This document shows positions 1,305-8,028 of a stretch of 53,858 bases of DNA, piece by piece (position 1 is the first letter of the stretch; each line of letters opens with the position of its first letter). This DNA comes from a virus. The notes under the pieces were generated by a model. That model saw only the letters and a list, made by a program, of their open reading frames with translations. It did not search any database and was not told the DNA's origin. The position numbers and the translations under genes are program-made. Where the stretch lies: positions 1-53,858 of the IMG/VR virus record IMGVR_UViG_3300009160_001803. One strand, given 5' to 3'.

Positions 1305-1715
1305 TGGTGGAGGTGCGGAGGCTCGAACTCCGGTCCATAATATCCTGTCAAACAAGGACTACACGTTTAGGTTAACATTTTCTAACGTTCCAAAATATTC
1401 GATTTTTAACTTGATCGAAAACAAGGTTAGTTTGTTCTTCATTATCGTAAACTAACAACCAATAAACGACTCGATTTCGGGTTCAGTCGTATTCCACCTT
1501 AAAGGACTTCTGTTGCTAGGTTATGTGTCCACCGACCCCCGTTTCCGTTAACTAATTAAGCTACAGTAACTTCAGAACCTCTTAGTAAACCAAGAGTTTC
1601 CATTTTCGATAAAACGTCGCCGATTGTTTTTGTGAATCAGTTTTTAAAGAGATTAATTCAGTCTCTACGTGCCCTTTATTCTCAGCCAATACCTGTCAAA
1701 TCCAAAAACACCCCC
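1305..1715 (-). ncRNA. ssrA: Transfer-messenger RNA (tmRNA), phage-encoded
   Basis: The RNA rescues stalled ribosomes and tags the unfinished protein for proteolysis. Read on the minus strand it begins GGGGGTG at 1715. This pairs fully (one G-U) with CACCTCC just before a genomically encoded ACCA ending at 1305. The TTTGGATTTGACAGG 5' signature, the T-arm (CGGAG, loop TTCGAGC, CTCCG) and a total of 411 bases are typical of one-piece tmRNA. The tag frame follows CAAUC with a GGC resume codon at 1621-1619 and runs 21 codons to TAA at 1558-1556: it begins GDVLSKMETL and ends SEVTVA. Most known bacterial tags end in LAA, so this tag is unusual in length and ending. A TATTTATA motif on the minus strand lies 23 bases upstream. 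Phage genes flank it on both sides, so it is not a host ssrA serving as an attachment site. Confidence 0.9.
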
Positions 1716-1798: not shown

Positions 1799-2878
1799 AT
1801 GTCAGAAATTGGGGAAACATACGAATATTTAAAAAAATTATCAAAAAAGGATTTAACGGATGTTAGATTTAGTAAATACCAGTATCCTGATATAATCGAT
1901 GATATTAAATACAATTATGATTCCCCGTCATCAAGTGTTATTTATTTTGAATTTGAAAATACTGAAGAATATTTTAAAATTTTAGGTATTGAGGATGAGG
2001 AAGATATCTATGTGTGGAATAAATTTATGGATAATTATTATTACGATTATGATTATGATTATTACAGATATGAAGAAGATTGGAAAGAGGGGTACATATT
2101 AAAAGAATTTAGTCCAGAAAATCTTAACTTGGTTAAACAAATTCTAAGATTAGTTAACCCATCAATGGTTTTACGAGATGACGATACGGATGCCAATATG
2201 GGTATTATTGCGACTTATTTAGACAAAAGGTTTGGTGATATTGAATATATTGTTAGTGAATATGGTTCTTTGAACCAAGACTGTACTAGAAGGGCGGTTA
2301 GTAATGTTTTAAAAAATGAAACTAAAAATCCATTTAAAAAACTTGGGATTAGTGAGACTTATGGGAATTACAGATTTAAAACCACTTTAGGTGTATTAAT
2401 ACATTGGTACGAGACTTTAGAGGCCAAAAATTTTGATATACCAGAATTATTAAAGTTAATGTTAACAAAATACGATAGAGAATCTAGAGGTAACTGGTAT
2501 GAATTGGAATATAATGTTTGGTGTGATGATTTTGAATGGGACTCTTTTCACAAAGAAACTGCCCGTCATTTAAATGATATCTTAGAAAAGGTAGAAGAAG
2601 ATTTATCTGAAGATGTAAGTTTTGAAAGGTACAACGAATTGTTTAATATTGTGGAAAAATTAGGAGGTTTTAGAAGATGGATTAATATCCCCTCAAAAAA
2701 AATTGAAGTGTACTTTTCAGATCTAGATATAAAAACAGGAAAACTTAATTTTACCTCTAGAAAACCAAACCATCCTTCAGAAGATAGATCTGTGGATAAT
2801 GTTGAGGATTTAAATTTATCACTTTACCATCCTGAATTATTTGAACAACTTAAAAAAATAAAAGGTATTATTTTGTAA
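1799..2878 (+). CDS. Hypothetical protein, acidic, Tyr/Asp-rich
   Basis: 359 residues, not recognised. The protein is acidic and has a striking low-complexity run of Tyr and Asp at about residues 81-91 (NYYYDYDYDYYRYEED). The C-terminal half reads as helical. There is no signal peptide or membrane segment. The ATG at 1799 is the only Met before residue about 78, so the start is probably right although the leader is very short. It is followed after 29 bases by the M20-like peptidase gene on the same strand. Function unknown. Confidence 0.6.
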   Translation: MSEIGETYEYLKKLSKKDLTDVRFSKYQYPDIIDDIKYNYDSPSSSVIYFEFENTEEYFKILGIEDEEDIYVWNKFMDNYYYDYDYDYYRYEEDWKEGYILKEFSPENLNLVKQILRLVNPSMVLRDDDTDANMGIIATYLDKRFGDIEYIVSEYGSLNQDCTRRAVSNVLKNETKNPFKKLGISETYGNYRFKTTLGVLIHWYETLEAKNFDIPELLKLMLTKYDRESRGNWYELEYNVWCDDFEWDSFHKETARHLNDILEKVEEDLSEDVSFERYNELFNIVEKLGGFRRWINIPSKKIEVYFSDLDIKTGKLNFTSRKPNHPSEDRSVDNVEDLNLSLYHPELFEQLKKIKGIIL

Positions 2879-2907: not shown

Positions 2908-3693
2908 ATGGAAAGAAATTACGAATTACTAAAAGAGGTGTTATCGGTACCCTCAAAAACATATCAAGAAGATTTATTGATACAATTTATCTGTGATTGG
3001 TTAGATAAAAATAACATCACATATTATGTTGATGACTTATACAACATATATGCAACAAAACAAACTGATCAGGATATTGAATACTTTCCTTGTGTGGTCG
3101 CACATACTGATACTGTACATAATATTGACACAATAAATGTTAAAGAAGAGATGTTACCTGATGCTCAAGGTAATGTTAAACTATCTTTAAAGGCATATAA
3201 TAATAACGGAGACCCAACAGGAATTGGTGGTGATGATAAATGTGGGGTTTATGGGTGTTTAGAACTACTAAAAGAATTACCTAATCTAAAAGCCGCTTTC
3301 TTTGTTGCTGAAGAAACAGGATGTAAGGGTTCATTTAATGCGGATCCTAATTTTTTCACTAATGTTGGTTACGTTATACAATTTGATGCCCCCGAAAATA
3401 ATATGATTTCAGAATTTTTAATGAACAAACCAATGTTTAATAGAGACAGTGAATTCTTTAATGTTGGGGGTAGACTAATAACAGAACATTTTCCTGGCGA
3501 TACAGAATACCATAGACACCCATACACGGATATATACCCATTAAATAAGAACTTTGGGTTGTCCTGTTTCAATATCTCTATTGGGTACTACAATTACCAC
3601 ACAAGAAACGAATACGTGGTTGTTGACGACACATACAATGGTATTAAGGTGGGTAAATTAATGATAGAGGAGTTAGGTAATAATAAACATTAA
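2908..3693 (+). CDS. Compact M20/M42-like metallopeptidase or amidohydrolase
   Basis: 261 residues. The two-zinc peptidase signature is visible in order: AHTDTV (H66, D68), GIGGDDKCG (D109/D110), AEETGCKGS (E135/E136), FDAPE (D160) and NYHTRNEY (H231). These are the metal ligands and catalytic acids of M20-type di- and tripeptidases and deacylases. Family members usually have about 370-420 residues with a dimerisation lid; here the lid is missing or reduced, leaving almost only the catalytic core. The substrate cannot be read from the sequence: a peptide, acyl-amino acid or cell-wall fragment are all possible. No signal peptide, so it is cytoplasmic or virion-borne. Its upstream region has a host-type rather than late-type promoter. 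Confidence 0.75.
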   Translation: MERNYELLKEVLSVPSKTYQEDLLIQFICDWLDKNNITYYVDDLYNIYATKQTDQDIEYFPCVVAHTDTVHNIDTINVKEEMLPDAQGNVKLSLKAYNNNGDPTGIGGDDKCGVYGCLELLKELPNLKAAFFVAEETGCKGSFNADPNFFTNVGYVIQFDAPENNMISEFLMNKPMFNRDSEFFNVGGRLITEHFPGDTEYHRHPYTDIYPLNKNFGLSCFNISIGYYNYHTRNEYVVVDDTYNGIKVGKLMIEELGNNKH

Positions 3694-4302: not shown

Positions 4303-4725
4303 TTATGATGGTTTTTCTATATTAAACTTTGTAATATTTTTTACTGTGGTTGAGTTATCTGTAAACCAAAACCAAATAACATTTTCGCTCCCATAATTTG
4401 TATTAACGATCAAACCATAATCAAAACTTTTTTCCAATATATTAATCTTAAGTGACCCATTACCAAGATTTACAAATTTAATTGGTAACGAACTAATTTC
4501 AACACCATCAATAAAATATGTGGAAGTTTCATTACCAAGGTCTATAATATATTTGGTGTAATCACTATTAACATCATATATTAAATCCGGTTTCATTAAC
4601 ACAGAATCCACCGATGTTCTATGAAATGAAATCATTTCTTGTTTTTCAAATACGTGAATTATTAATTTTTGACTAAATGATAAAAAATTAAAGAAAAAAA
4701 ATAGGGTTAAAAAAATTGTTTTCAT
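4303..4725 (-). CDS. Exported protein of unknown function
   Basis: 140 residues. The signal peptide MKTIFLTLFFFFNFLSFSQ, with probable cleavage at SFS|Q, is almost the same as in the exported protein at 775-1221. The mature region is short and beta-rich in appearance, with no recognised domain and no lipobox. Upstream, a TAAATTTG element fits the host -7 promoter box, and no late-type motif is present. It is the next minus-strand gene downstream of the ClpC-like gene, with 50 bases between them. Confidence 0.65.
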   Translation of the reverse strand: MKTIFLTLFFFFNFLSFSQKLIIHVFEKQEMISFHRTSVDSVLMKPDLIYDVNSDYTKYIIDLGNETSTYFIDGVEISSLPIKFVNLGNGSLKINILEKSFDYGLIVNTNYGSENVIWFWFTDNSTTVKNITKFNIEKPS

Positions 4726-4775: not shown

Positions 4776-6836
4776 TTATCCCTTTTTATTTCTTCCTTTT
4801 TTCTTTGGTTCTGGTTTTGACCTATCCTCAATTTCTATTGTTTGATCATCACCTTCTCCTTTAACAAATAACATATATTCGCCCCCTTCTATAACCTCAT
4901 TGTTTAATATCTTTTCTGAAATTAAGTCTTCGATTTTATCTTGGATCGCTCTTTTAATTGGTCTTGCTCCGTATTGATCATCAAAACCAACTTTTGATAT
5001 AAAATCAGTCACAGAACCTTCATAAGAAACGTTATATTTCATAGATGTTAATCTGTCAATTAGTTTATCAATTTCAAGTTTTACAATTTTATCAATATGT
5101 TCTTTTACTAAAGAATTAAATATTACAACATCATCAATTCTATTTAAAAATTCAGGTGCAAAAAATTTGCGTAATTCTTTTTTCAATACGTCTCTTTTAT
5201 ACTCCTCTTGGACAACTTCACTATTATTATTTGTTTTAAATCCAACACCATTCCCAAAGTCCTGTAATTTTCTAACACCAATATTTGATGTCATAATAAT
5301 TAAACAGTTTTTAAAGTTGATCTTTCTGCCTAACCCATCAGTTAAATGTCCATCATCTAACATCTGTAGTAAGGTTGCGAATATGTCTTTATTTGCCTTC
5401 TCAATCTCATCAAAAAGTATGACAGAATATGGTTTATTTTTAACTTGTTCTGTTAATTGACCCCCTTCTTCATGTCCCACATATCCTGGAGGGGATCCAA
5501 TAAGTCTTGAGATGGTATGTTTCTCTTGGTACTCAGACATGTCAACTCTTATTAAACTATCTTCACTACCAAATATTTCTTTTGCTAATTTTTTTGCTAA
5601 AAACGTCTTACCAACACCTGTTGATCCTAAAAATATAAACGAACCGATTGGTCTATTAGGGTCTTTAATCCCAACTCTATTTCTTCTTATAGATTTTGAT
5701 ATTTTTCCAACCGCCTCTTCTTGACCAATAACGTATTTATTTAAAGTTAATTCAAGATTAACTAACGAATTTTTCTCATCTACATTTATTTTACTAACAG
5801 GAATTTTAGTCATGTTTGAAACTACCTCATAAATGATTTCATCAGGAATACCTCGTTTACTATTTTTAAGATGATCCTCAAATTTCTTTTTCTCCTCTTC
5901 TAATTTAATTAAAACGTTTCTTTCTCTATCTCTTAATTCGGCTGCTTGTTCGTAGTTTTGTTTTTTAATAACGGTCGCCTTCTCTTTCTTTATTTCTTGG
6001 GCCTCAACTTTTAATAACTCAATTTCTTCAGGTAATTTTATATCTATTTGCATTCTTGACCCAACCTCATCTAAAATATCAAAAGCCTTATCAGGAAACT
6101 CTCTATCCGTAATATATCTATCGGCTAACTCAACACATAACCGAAGTGATTCATCGGTATAATTAACCTTATGATGTTCTTCATATTTACCCTTACTTTG
6201 TTGTAGTATTTGAAACGTTTCTTCTTTGGTTGATGGATCTACAATAATCTTTTGGAATCTTCTTTCTAATGCACCATCTTTCTCAAAATGTCTTCTATAT
6301 TCATCAAGGGTTGTTGCTCCAATACACTGAATTTCACCTCTTGATAACGCAGGTTTAAATATGTTTGATGCGTCTAAAGAACCTGAACTATTACCCGCAC
6401 CAACCATAGTATGAATTTCATCTATAAATAAAATAATATTAGGGGTGTTCTGAAGTTCTTCAATAATCACCTTCATTCTTTCTTCAAATTGACCTCTATA
6501 CTTTGTGCCGGCAACAATTGAGTTAATGTCTAAAGACACAATTCTTTTATCTACCAAATTTTTTGGGCACTCTCCACCATAAATCATCATTGCAAGACCC
6601 TCGACGATTGCAGTTTTACCTGCTCCTGGTTCACCAATAATAATAGGGTTATTTTTTTTCCTCCTTGATAAAACTTGGGCAATTCTAAAGATTTCTTTTT
6701 CTCTACCAATTACTGGGTCTAATTTACCTTGTTCGGCAAGTTTTATTAGATCTTTACTAAAATTATCTAATACAGGTGTTCCGGCCTCACTCTTTTTTTT
6801 ATTTTTATCATTACTATCGTCTACAAAATCTAACAT
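4776..6836 (-). CDS. clpC: ClpC-like AAA+ unfoldase without Clp-N domain
   Basis: 686 residues with two AAA+ modules. Module 1 has Walker A GEPGAGKT (68-75) and Walker B ILFIDE (135-140). A middle region with a UVR-like stretch (NYEQAAELRDRE, about 294-305) is typical of ClpC. Module 2 has Walker A GSTGVGKT (404-411), Walker B VILFDE (472-477) and NRID at 565-568. A V-G-F tripeptide at 531-533 sits where ClpA/ClpC carry the (I/L/V)GF loop that docks on ClpP. It therefore probably feeds substrates to host ClpP; no clpP is visible here. The usual N-terminal Clp repeats that bind adaptors are absent (about 20 residues before the first module against about 150), so substrate choice should differ from the host enzyme. 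The C-terminus is a Lys-rich tail. It lies about 3 kb from the tmRNA. Confidence 0.9.
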   Translation of the reverse strand: MLDFVDDSNDKNKKKSEAGTPVLDNFSKDLIKLAEQGKLDPVIGREKEIFRIAQVLSRRKKNNPIIIGEPGAGKTAIVEGLAMMIYGGECPKNLVDKRIVSLDINSIVAGTKYRGQFEERMKVIIEELQNTPNIILFIDEIHTMVGAGNSSGSLDASNIFKPALSRGEIQCIGATTLDEYRRHFEKDGALERRFQKIIVDPSTKEETFQILQQSKGKYEEHHKVNYTDESLRLCVELADRYITDREFPDKAFDILDEVGSRMQIDIKLPEEIELLKVEAQEIKKEKATVIKKQNYEQAAELRDRERNVLIKLEEEKKKFEDHLKNSKRGIPDEIIYEVVSNMTKIPVSKINVDEKNSLVNLELTLNKYVIGQEEAVGKISKSIRRNRVGIKDPNRPIGSFIFLGSTGVGKTFLAKKLAKEIFGSEDSLIRVDMSEYQEKHTISRLIGSPPGYVGHEEGGQLTEQVKNKPYSVILFDEIEKANKDIFATLLQMLDDGHLTDGLGRKINFKNCLIIMTSNIGVRKLQDFGNGVGFKTNNNSEVVQEEYKRDVLKKELRKFFAPEFLNRIDDVVIFNSLVKEHIDKIVKLEIDKLIDRLTSMKYNVSYEGSVTDFISKVGFDDQYGARPIKRAIQDKIEDLISEKILNNEVIEGGEYMLFVKGEGDDQTIEIEDRSKPEPKKKGRNKKG

Positions 6837-7289: not shown

Positions 7290-7293
7290 TTTG

Positions 7294-8028
7294 ATGGACA
7301 ATGAATTAATAAAAAGTTTTGAACCAAAAAAAGAATTAAACCCAAAAATTTGGGACGACTCTGGAAAAATAACAAAAATAAACCCAGATGTTAGGGACAG
7401 TCTTCTTAAGACTGCAAATTTATTTATAGATTCTCTTGGGGTAGATATTTTAATAACTGATATTATTATGATTGGATCATTAGTCAATTACAATTGGTCC
7501 AAATATTCTGATATTGATTTACACATTGTCTTAAATTATGGTCAATTCCCATCTGACTCTAAGGATTTATATGTTGAATTCTTTGATCTAAAAAAAATAG
7601 TTTTTAATCAAAAACATAATATAAAATTATTTGGTTACGACGTTGAGTGTTTTGTACAAGACGAGAATGAGGTCGCATTTAGTTCTGGGGTATATTCTGT
7701 TCTTTATAATATGTGGGTTAATGAACCAAAAAAAGATGAAATGAAAGAAATTGATACAGAACTAATTAAAGAAAAGGCAAAACAATGGATGAATATTATT
7801 GATGGTGTTGTTGACAACATCGGAGATGAAAGTCCTGATGAGATAAAATCTATTGTAAAAAAATATAAAGAAAAACTTAAGAAGTTTAGAAGTTGTGGAC
7901 TTGAAAAAGGTGGGGAAATGTCTATAGAAAATCTAGTATTTAAACTATTAAGAAGAAACGGTTATATTGGTAAATTATATGATATACCAACAAAATTAAT
8001 CGACAAAAAATTATCAATGAATCAATAA
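7294..8028 (+). CDS. Nucleotidyltransferase-fold protein
   Basis: 244 residues. MIGSLVNYNWSKYSDIDLHI (about residues 51-70) is the nucleotidyltransferase signature: G-S in the loop, then D-x-D (SDIDLH) that binds metal. A third carboxylate lies probably in YDVECFVQ. The remainder is helical and charged. Such minimal enzymes transfer a nucleotide to a protein, RNA or small molecule (MNT/HEPN antitoxins, AMPylators, tRNA nucleotidyltransferases); the target is unknown here. I prefer the ATG at 7294 to the TTG one codon earlier. No HEPN partner is seen next to it. Confidence 0.7.
   Translation: MDNELIKSFEPKKELNPKIWDDSGKITKINPDVRDSLLKTANLFIDSLGVDILITDIIMIGSLVNYNWSKYSDIDLHIVLNYGQFPSDSKDLYVEFFDLKKIVFNQKHNIKLFGYDVECFVQDENEVAFSSGVYSVLYNMWVNEPKKDEMKEIDTELIKEKAKQWMNIIDGVVDNIGDESPDEIKSIVKKYKEKLKKFRSCGLEKGGEMSIENLVFKLLRRNGYIGKLYDIPTKLIDKKLSMNQ

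Follow-up and report, generated by a model that had tools for sequence, protein, structure and literature searches.

A one-piece tmRNA gene in a phage genome

The stretch of DNA analyzed here (the window) is a 53,858-base linear virus record from IMG/VR that carries genes for a terminase, a portal, a head protease, and a major head protein. It encodes a tmRNA and a ClpC-type unfoldase on the minus strand, and genes for an M20-like metallopeptidase and a conserved 359-residue protein lie between the two on the plus strand (Table 1).

Table 1. Positions of the features of the tmRNA-unfoldase region in the window
Feature	Position	Strand	Basis
One-piece tmRNA, full length	1305..1715	minus	RF00023 (cmscan) at 1715..1305, 104.3 bits, E 9e-40, model 1-374 of 374; covariation across 35 relatives
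3' acceptor strand CACCTCC and encoded ACCA	1305..1315	minus	Pairs with GGGGGTG at 1715-1709, including G3.U70
Tag frame GDVLSKMETLGLLRGSEVTVA, closed by TAA; resume codon GGC (1621-1619)	1556..1621	minus	Sequence; A at -4; frame open in all relatives
Hairpin CTCTTGG-TTTA-CTAAGAG within the tag frame	1579..1596	minus	RNA fold of the tag region; fold varies among relatives
Conserved 359-aa protein beside the tmRNA	1799..2878	plus	Homologs in 55/80 clp loci; model pLDDT 89
M20-like metallopeptidase between clp and the tmRNA	2908..3693	plus	phrog_4191 peptidase, 1.5e-34; weakly matched in the PDB by Xaa-His dipeptidase and peptidase T
ClpC-type double-AAA+ unfoldase, 686 aa, without N-terminal domain	4776..6836	minus	PHROG 4871; Pfam AAA, AAA_2, AAA_lid_9, ClpB_D2-small
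ClpP-docking G-V-G-F loop (unfoldase aa 530-533)	5238..5249	minus	GF kept in 80/80 homologs

The covariance-model match to the tmRNA spans the whole Rfam model and scores twice the gathering cutoff of 47 bits, and together with the covariation it bears out an earlier note on this DNA that had read a complete one-piece tmRNA. The elements quoted in that note were all read correctly; the strand was absent from it, and all of them lie on the minus strand. The 3' CCA is encoded in the sequence, and other elements on this strand include TTTGACAGG and the T-loop TTCGAGC. Of 35 aligned tmRNA sequences, 34 keep the alanine determinant G3.U70, and RNAalifold found compensatory changes in 33 of the 40 predicted pairs of the same 35-sequence alignment. 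With this covariation, and with the recurrence of its tag family in more than 100 other IMG/VR contigs, the window tmRNA is far beyond chance. That the gene is a degenerate relic was ruled out by the covariation and by the conservation of the frame. ARAGORN reported no tmRNA in the window; the identification is therefore based on Rfam and on comparison, and phage annotation that uses ARAGORN alone will miss this tmRNA family. A search of 50,697 annotated phage records for the tmRNA and its tag returned no match.

Flavobacterium myoviruses are among the sources of the nearest annotated capsid proteins. Two small proteins encoded on the minus strand (775-1221 and 4303-4725), both without family matches, have what appear by eye to be Bacteroidota-like signal peptides ending in FSQK. 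The capsid relatives and these signal peptides make a Bacteroidota host likely, and the large phages that carry the tag family probably infect members of this phylum. The nearest capsid protein is that of a 484-kb uncultured phage, LR756508.1. At 92434-92880 this genome encodes a tmRNA whose tag, read as GVNNADYESAGFTAEDFAQMDGESLYHGSERKPAAV, is longer still, and, at 414804-414915, a separate 112-nt tmRNA consisting of the tRNA-like domain only, like that of phage DS6A.

The tag frame and its translation

Read from 1621 down to 1556, the tag of the window tmRNA comprises 21 codons followed by a stop, which confirms the peptide proposed in the earlier note (GDVLSKMETL...SEVTVA). The fourth base before the resume codon is an A in all 35 aligned sequences; in Escherichia coli tmRNA, A86 sets the tag frame (PMC2481249), and the invariant A of the phage tmRNAs matches it, which supports the frame. 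The frame is open in all 38 distinct 21-codon tag sequences, and stops interrupt the other two frames in 37 and 33 of them. Pairwise differences at codon positions 1, 2, and 3 numbered 4808, 2724, and 6451, an excess at the third position that was counted among related tag sequences and not among independent events. The hairpin within the frame sits where the Rfam consensus has its stop codon, so the tag frame reads through the hairpin. Another resume frame with an ordinary ALAA tag was also looked for, and none exists in the window tmRNA. Judged from these comparisons, the gene is a tmRNA that retains its whole tRNA-like domain (G3.U70, CCA, and T-arm), a conserved resume signal, and a tag frame under selection at the protein level, and we are nearly certain that it is a real tmRNA whose private tag is translated.

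A family of long tags distinct from those of bacteria

A degenerate pattern for GDVLSKME retrieved 39 stretches from IMG/VR, about 33 of which carry this tag. A homolog search from the neighboring unfoldase gave 80 loci, and 51 of the 75 new records among them have a tmRNA above the gathering score. A broader tag pattern matched at least 120 stretches, and all 79 that were read among the matches listed contain tags of the same kind, one of them partial. Fifty-seven distinct tags were read from these IMG/VR contigs, 45 of 21 residues and 12 of 22 residues (examples are GNVLNKMEAIGLIRTSEVTVA, GNVINKLSAVGLIRAEEAVVA, GNVLDKMAAIGLIREDAAVVA, and GETFAKLSAIGLIREESVVAA). Among the 57, G1 and G11 are invariant, and K6, L12, and R14 are kept in 56, 55, and 53 tags, respectively. 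The last residue is A in 55 and is preceded by V in 50, and none has the [AV][LM]AA end of the canonical LAA/MAA type of ssrA degron. Rare ends are VTVS, found in four contigs, and VTVAY, found in a single contig (L004, L007, L017, L018, and L031 in all); L018, which has a VTVS tag, also encodes ClpP.

In 84,980 bacterial genomes the narrow tag pattern gave 35 matches, none of them in a tmRNA context, and the broad pattern matched in none of 396 Bacteroidota genomes. The Bacteroidota set was the phylum of a Saprospiraceae metagenome-assembled genome, taken as Bacteroidota, with 297 genomes drawn; a tmRNA scored above the cutoff in 277 of these 297. Host tags were sampled from 70 genomes and read by script in about 60, the N-terminal limits set by the script often being too long; they are short, finish almost without exception in LAA or MAA, and are in no case similar to the phage tag. 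In the tmRNA database, tags of 10 residues are the commonest (PMC11915505). The view that the phage tag is long and noncanonical therefore stands: tags of this kind have 21 to 22 residues, lack an LAA/MAA end, and do not occur in the bacterial genomes searched. What the earlier note had missed is that the tag belongs to a family.

A ClpC-type unfoldase linked to the tmRNA

The earlier note had guessed that tagged proteins might go to an unfoldase of the phage itself, and a ClpC-type gene (clp) does lie 3.06 kb from the tmRNA on the same strand, in an arrangement conserved in the family. Linkage was assessed in record sets that overlap in part. The unfoldase gene is present in 31 of the 33 tag-bearing records first found, and the two without it are short. 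In the second set, all 51 records having both genes have the tmRNA on the same strand as clp, 1.9 to 4.8 kb downstream. Among the 24 clp records without a tmRNA match, 20 have less than 2.5 kb of downstream sequence, and 1 of the other 4 (L164) has a divergent tag, GNTFEKLQAVGLLTTEAVTVA, 2.8 kb downstream of clp with no RF00023 match above the cutoff; this tmRNA of the family (L164:12720-13120) has a good tag and a broken 3' T-arm, a sign of either gene decay or faulty assembly. In the set found by tag alone, clp lies upstream in 49 loci, that is, in all 49 with enough sequence, and the remaining 30 loci, without clp, each have less than 2.7 kb upstream. Canonical tags of the Bacteroidota type were found in 26 viral contigs, of which some are probably prophages at ssrA; no clp lies in the flanks examined for these contigs, a contrast that is confounded by descent.

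The M20-like peptidase is found in 76 of the 80 clp loci, usually adjoining clp and mostly on the opposite strand. Because opposite-strand genes lie between them, clp and the tmRNA do not form one operon, and they may be linked through common descent as parts of one core gene block. The 359-residue neighbor was considered as a possible adaptor, and its model gave no match in the PDB at an E value of 0.001 or below. Upstream of clp, a protein encoded at 7291-8028 on the plus strand is conserved in 78 of the 80 loci and has, by eye, a nucleotidyltransferase-like GS...SDIDL motif.

Pfam found no Clp_N domain in the window unfoldase, which aligns to Staphylococcus aureus ClpC from ClpC residue 148 onward. 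The N-domain is missing in all 80 phage homologs, which have 38 to 60 residues before D1, compared with 198 to 234 in host ClpC. The ClpP-docking loop, at a site where host ClpC has GVGFG or a similar sequence, separates the phage protein from ClpB. In comparison with 30 bacterial ClpC proteins, the phage unfoldases keep two AAA+ domains, the pore-1 loops, and the Walker motifs and have 40 phage-specific positions, including N-S for G-A in the D1 pore-2 loop. Bacteroidota genomes carry full-length ClpC, mostly 53 to 59% identical to the phage unfoldase, and since the pore-1 loops of the two are equal, their specificities need not differ. ClpC1 and ClpA without their N-domains still act on SsrA-tagged protein, which ClpC1 unfolds, and ClpA in this form escapes ClpS (PMC6274998); this behavior makes direct pore engagement by the phage unfoldase plausible.

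ClpP is encoded in 8 of the 43 larger family records. Of the first 34 family records, one encodes it, with an intact open reading frame (such a locus is L051:1363-2043). Unfoldase, peptidase, and tmRNA are therefore found together in some of these phages. A search of the 34 family records found no SmpB, so the phage tmRNA would depend on that of the host. Many Clp-matching phage records in GenBank (Listeria, Enterococcus, and Acinetobacter) are short or clpB-like and may be host contamination.

A possible route from tag to protease

We hypothesize that host alanyl-tRNA synthetase, EF-Tu, and SmpB load the phage tmRNA onto ribosomes stalled during infection and that translation would then resume at the GGC codon, adding the phage's own tag to the stalled product. 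The hydrophobic body and V-A end of the tag would be engaged by the phage ClpC-type unfoldase which, without the N-domain used by adaptors, would take substrates directly through its pore. The GF loop would dock the unfoldase on ClpP, either that of the host or, in phages that encode one, that of the phage, and the nearby M20-like enzyme, a candidate end-stage peptidase, may finish the degradation products. In this way ribosomes would be freed, truncated proteins recycled, and host adaptors bypassed. The uncertain step is the routing of the tag to the phage unfoldase, a pairing proposed from genomic linkage.

Counting for the full chain are the tmRNA with its covariation, the tag family, the absence of the tag from the bacteria searched, the linkage to clp, the lack of clp in the flanks of canonical-tag viral contigs, the loss of the N-domain with retention of the ClpP and pore-1 loops, the action of N-domain-less ClpC1 and ClpA on SsrA-tagged protein, and the presence of ClpP in some members. 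Counted against it are the possible shared descent of the core block, the lack of a single operon, pore-1 loops equal to those of host ClpC, and a V-A end that may suit host ClpXP. Weighing these, we judge that the complete route, from phage tag through phage ClpC-type unfoldase to ClpP, has an even chance of being correct. Somewhat more tentatively, this route could form an orthogonal channel, in which a private degron poorly read by host ClpX is fed to ClpP by an N-domain-less phage ClpC insensitive to host adaptors.

It is possible, though less likely, that the tag has merely diverged as a degron and continues to be recognized by host ClpXP, and that the phage ClpC serves other substrates, being a neighbor by descent only. 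LVA variants of the ssrA tag are known ClpX-type degrons, and the final V-A of the phage tag with its free carboxylate is close to them, which may leave the tag legible to host ClpXP; the position of clp and the tmRNA in a conserved core block means that their co-occurrence needs no functional link. However, the host tags read end almost always in LAA or MAA, an end of which the 57 phage tags offer no example, and the conservation over 21 to 22 residues, with G1, K6, G11, L12, and R14 among those kept, goes further than a bare V-A degron would require. We consider it improbable that the tag is not a degron at all and that the tmRNA frees ribosomes while sparing the tagged products or marking them for another fate. 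The canonical LAA end has been lost in all tags read, and in E. coli assays rescue without degradation suffices for phage growth, the tag function not being critical (PMC2481249), but the tag is conserved at the protein level and, like degrons, terminates in small hydrophobic residues, and an unfoldase with a ClpP loop is always nearby. Very little probability attaches to the idea that the conserved stretch is mainly RNA structure (the hairpin and pseudoknot region) with an incidental peptide, since the predicted fold, for all that a hairpin lies within the frame, varies between relatives while the amino acids stay conserved, and the tag frame is the only one open throughout.

Comparison with known systems

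A tag that is shared by many phages, unlike those of all bacteria sampled, and linked to an unfoldase makes it testable why phages carry tmRNA. If the proposed routing is correct, infected cells may contain a tag-and-destroy line run by the phage itself, and the tag and unfoldase could provide another degron-protease pair, orthogonal to the first, with which to degrade proteins in a controlled way.

The phage tmRNA is like bacterial one-piece tmRNA (ssrA, RF00023) in its tRNA-like domain, G3.U70, A at -4, and single tag frame, but its tag frame, unlike theirs, reads through a hairpin. Bacterial tags (e.g., GENNYALAA and ANDYSYAMAA) are mostly about 10 residues long (PMC11915505) with an LAA/MAA end, whereas the phage tags have 21 to 22 residues and end in V-A. 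Bacterial ClpC (S. aureus 6em8, Bacillus subtilis, and Mycobacterium tuberculosis ClpC1) shares with the phage unfoldase the two AAA+ domains, middle domain, pore-1 loops, Walker motifs, and ClpP loop but has the N-terminal domain that the phage protein lacks. In Pseudomonas phage pf16, an SspB-like adaptor is likewise a phage gene touching the host ssrA/ClpXP pathway (PMC5587285); pf16 has the adaptor and no tmRNA, whereas here there are a tmRNA and an unfoldase and no recognized adaptor.

Phage-encoded tmRNAs are known, and such phages need no SmpB of their own (PMC4131195, PMC9004378). Mycobacteriophages Bxz1 and Wildcat, Bacillus phage G, and the marine myophage Melnitz are likewise tailed phages with a tmRNA gene; that of Wildcat is the most expressed lytic gene of the phage (PMC7474061), and that of Melnitz is two-piece and of the alphaproteobacterial type, whereas the tmRNA of the window is one-piece. 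The publications consulted on these known phage tmRNAs describe no conserved private tag family or linked unfoldase, and we found no description of either in the open-access literature, a scope outside which most subscription papers fall. What is new here, as far as that literature shows, is therefore not a tmRNA in a phage but a private tag family and the unfoldase linked to it.
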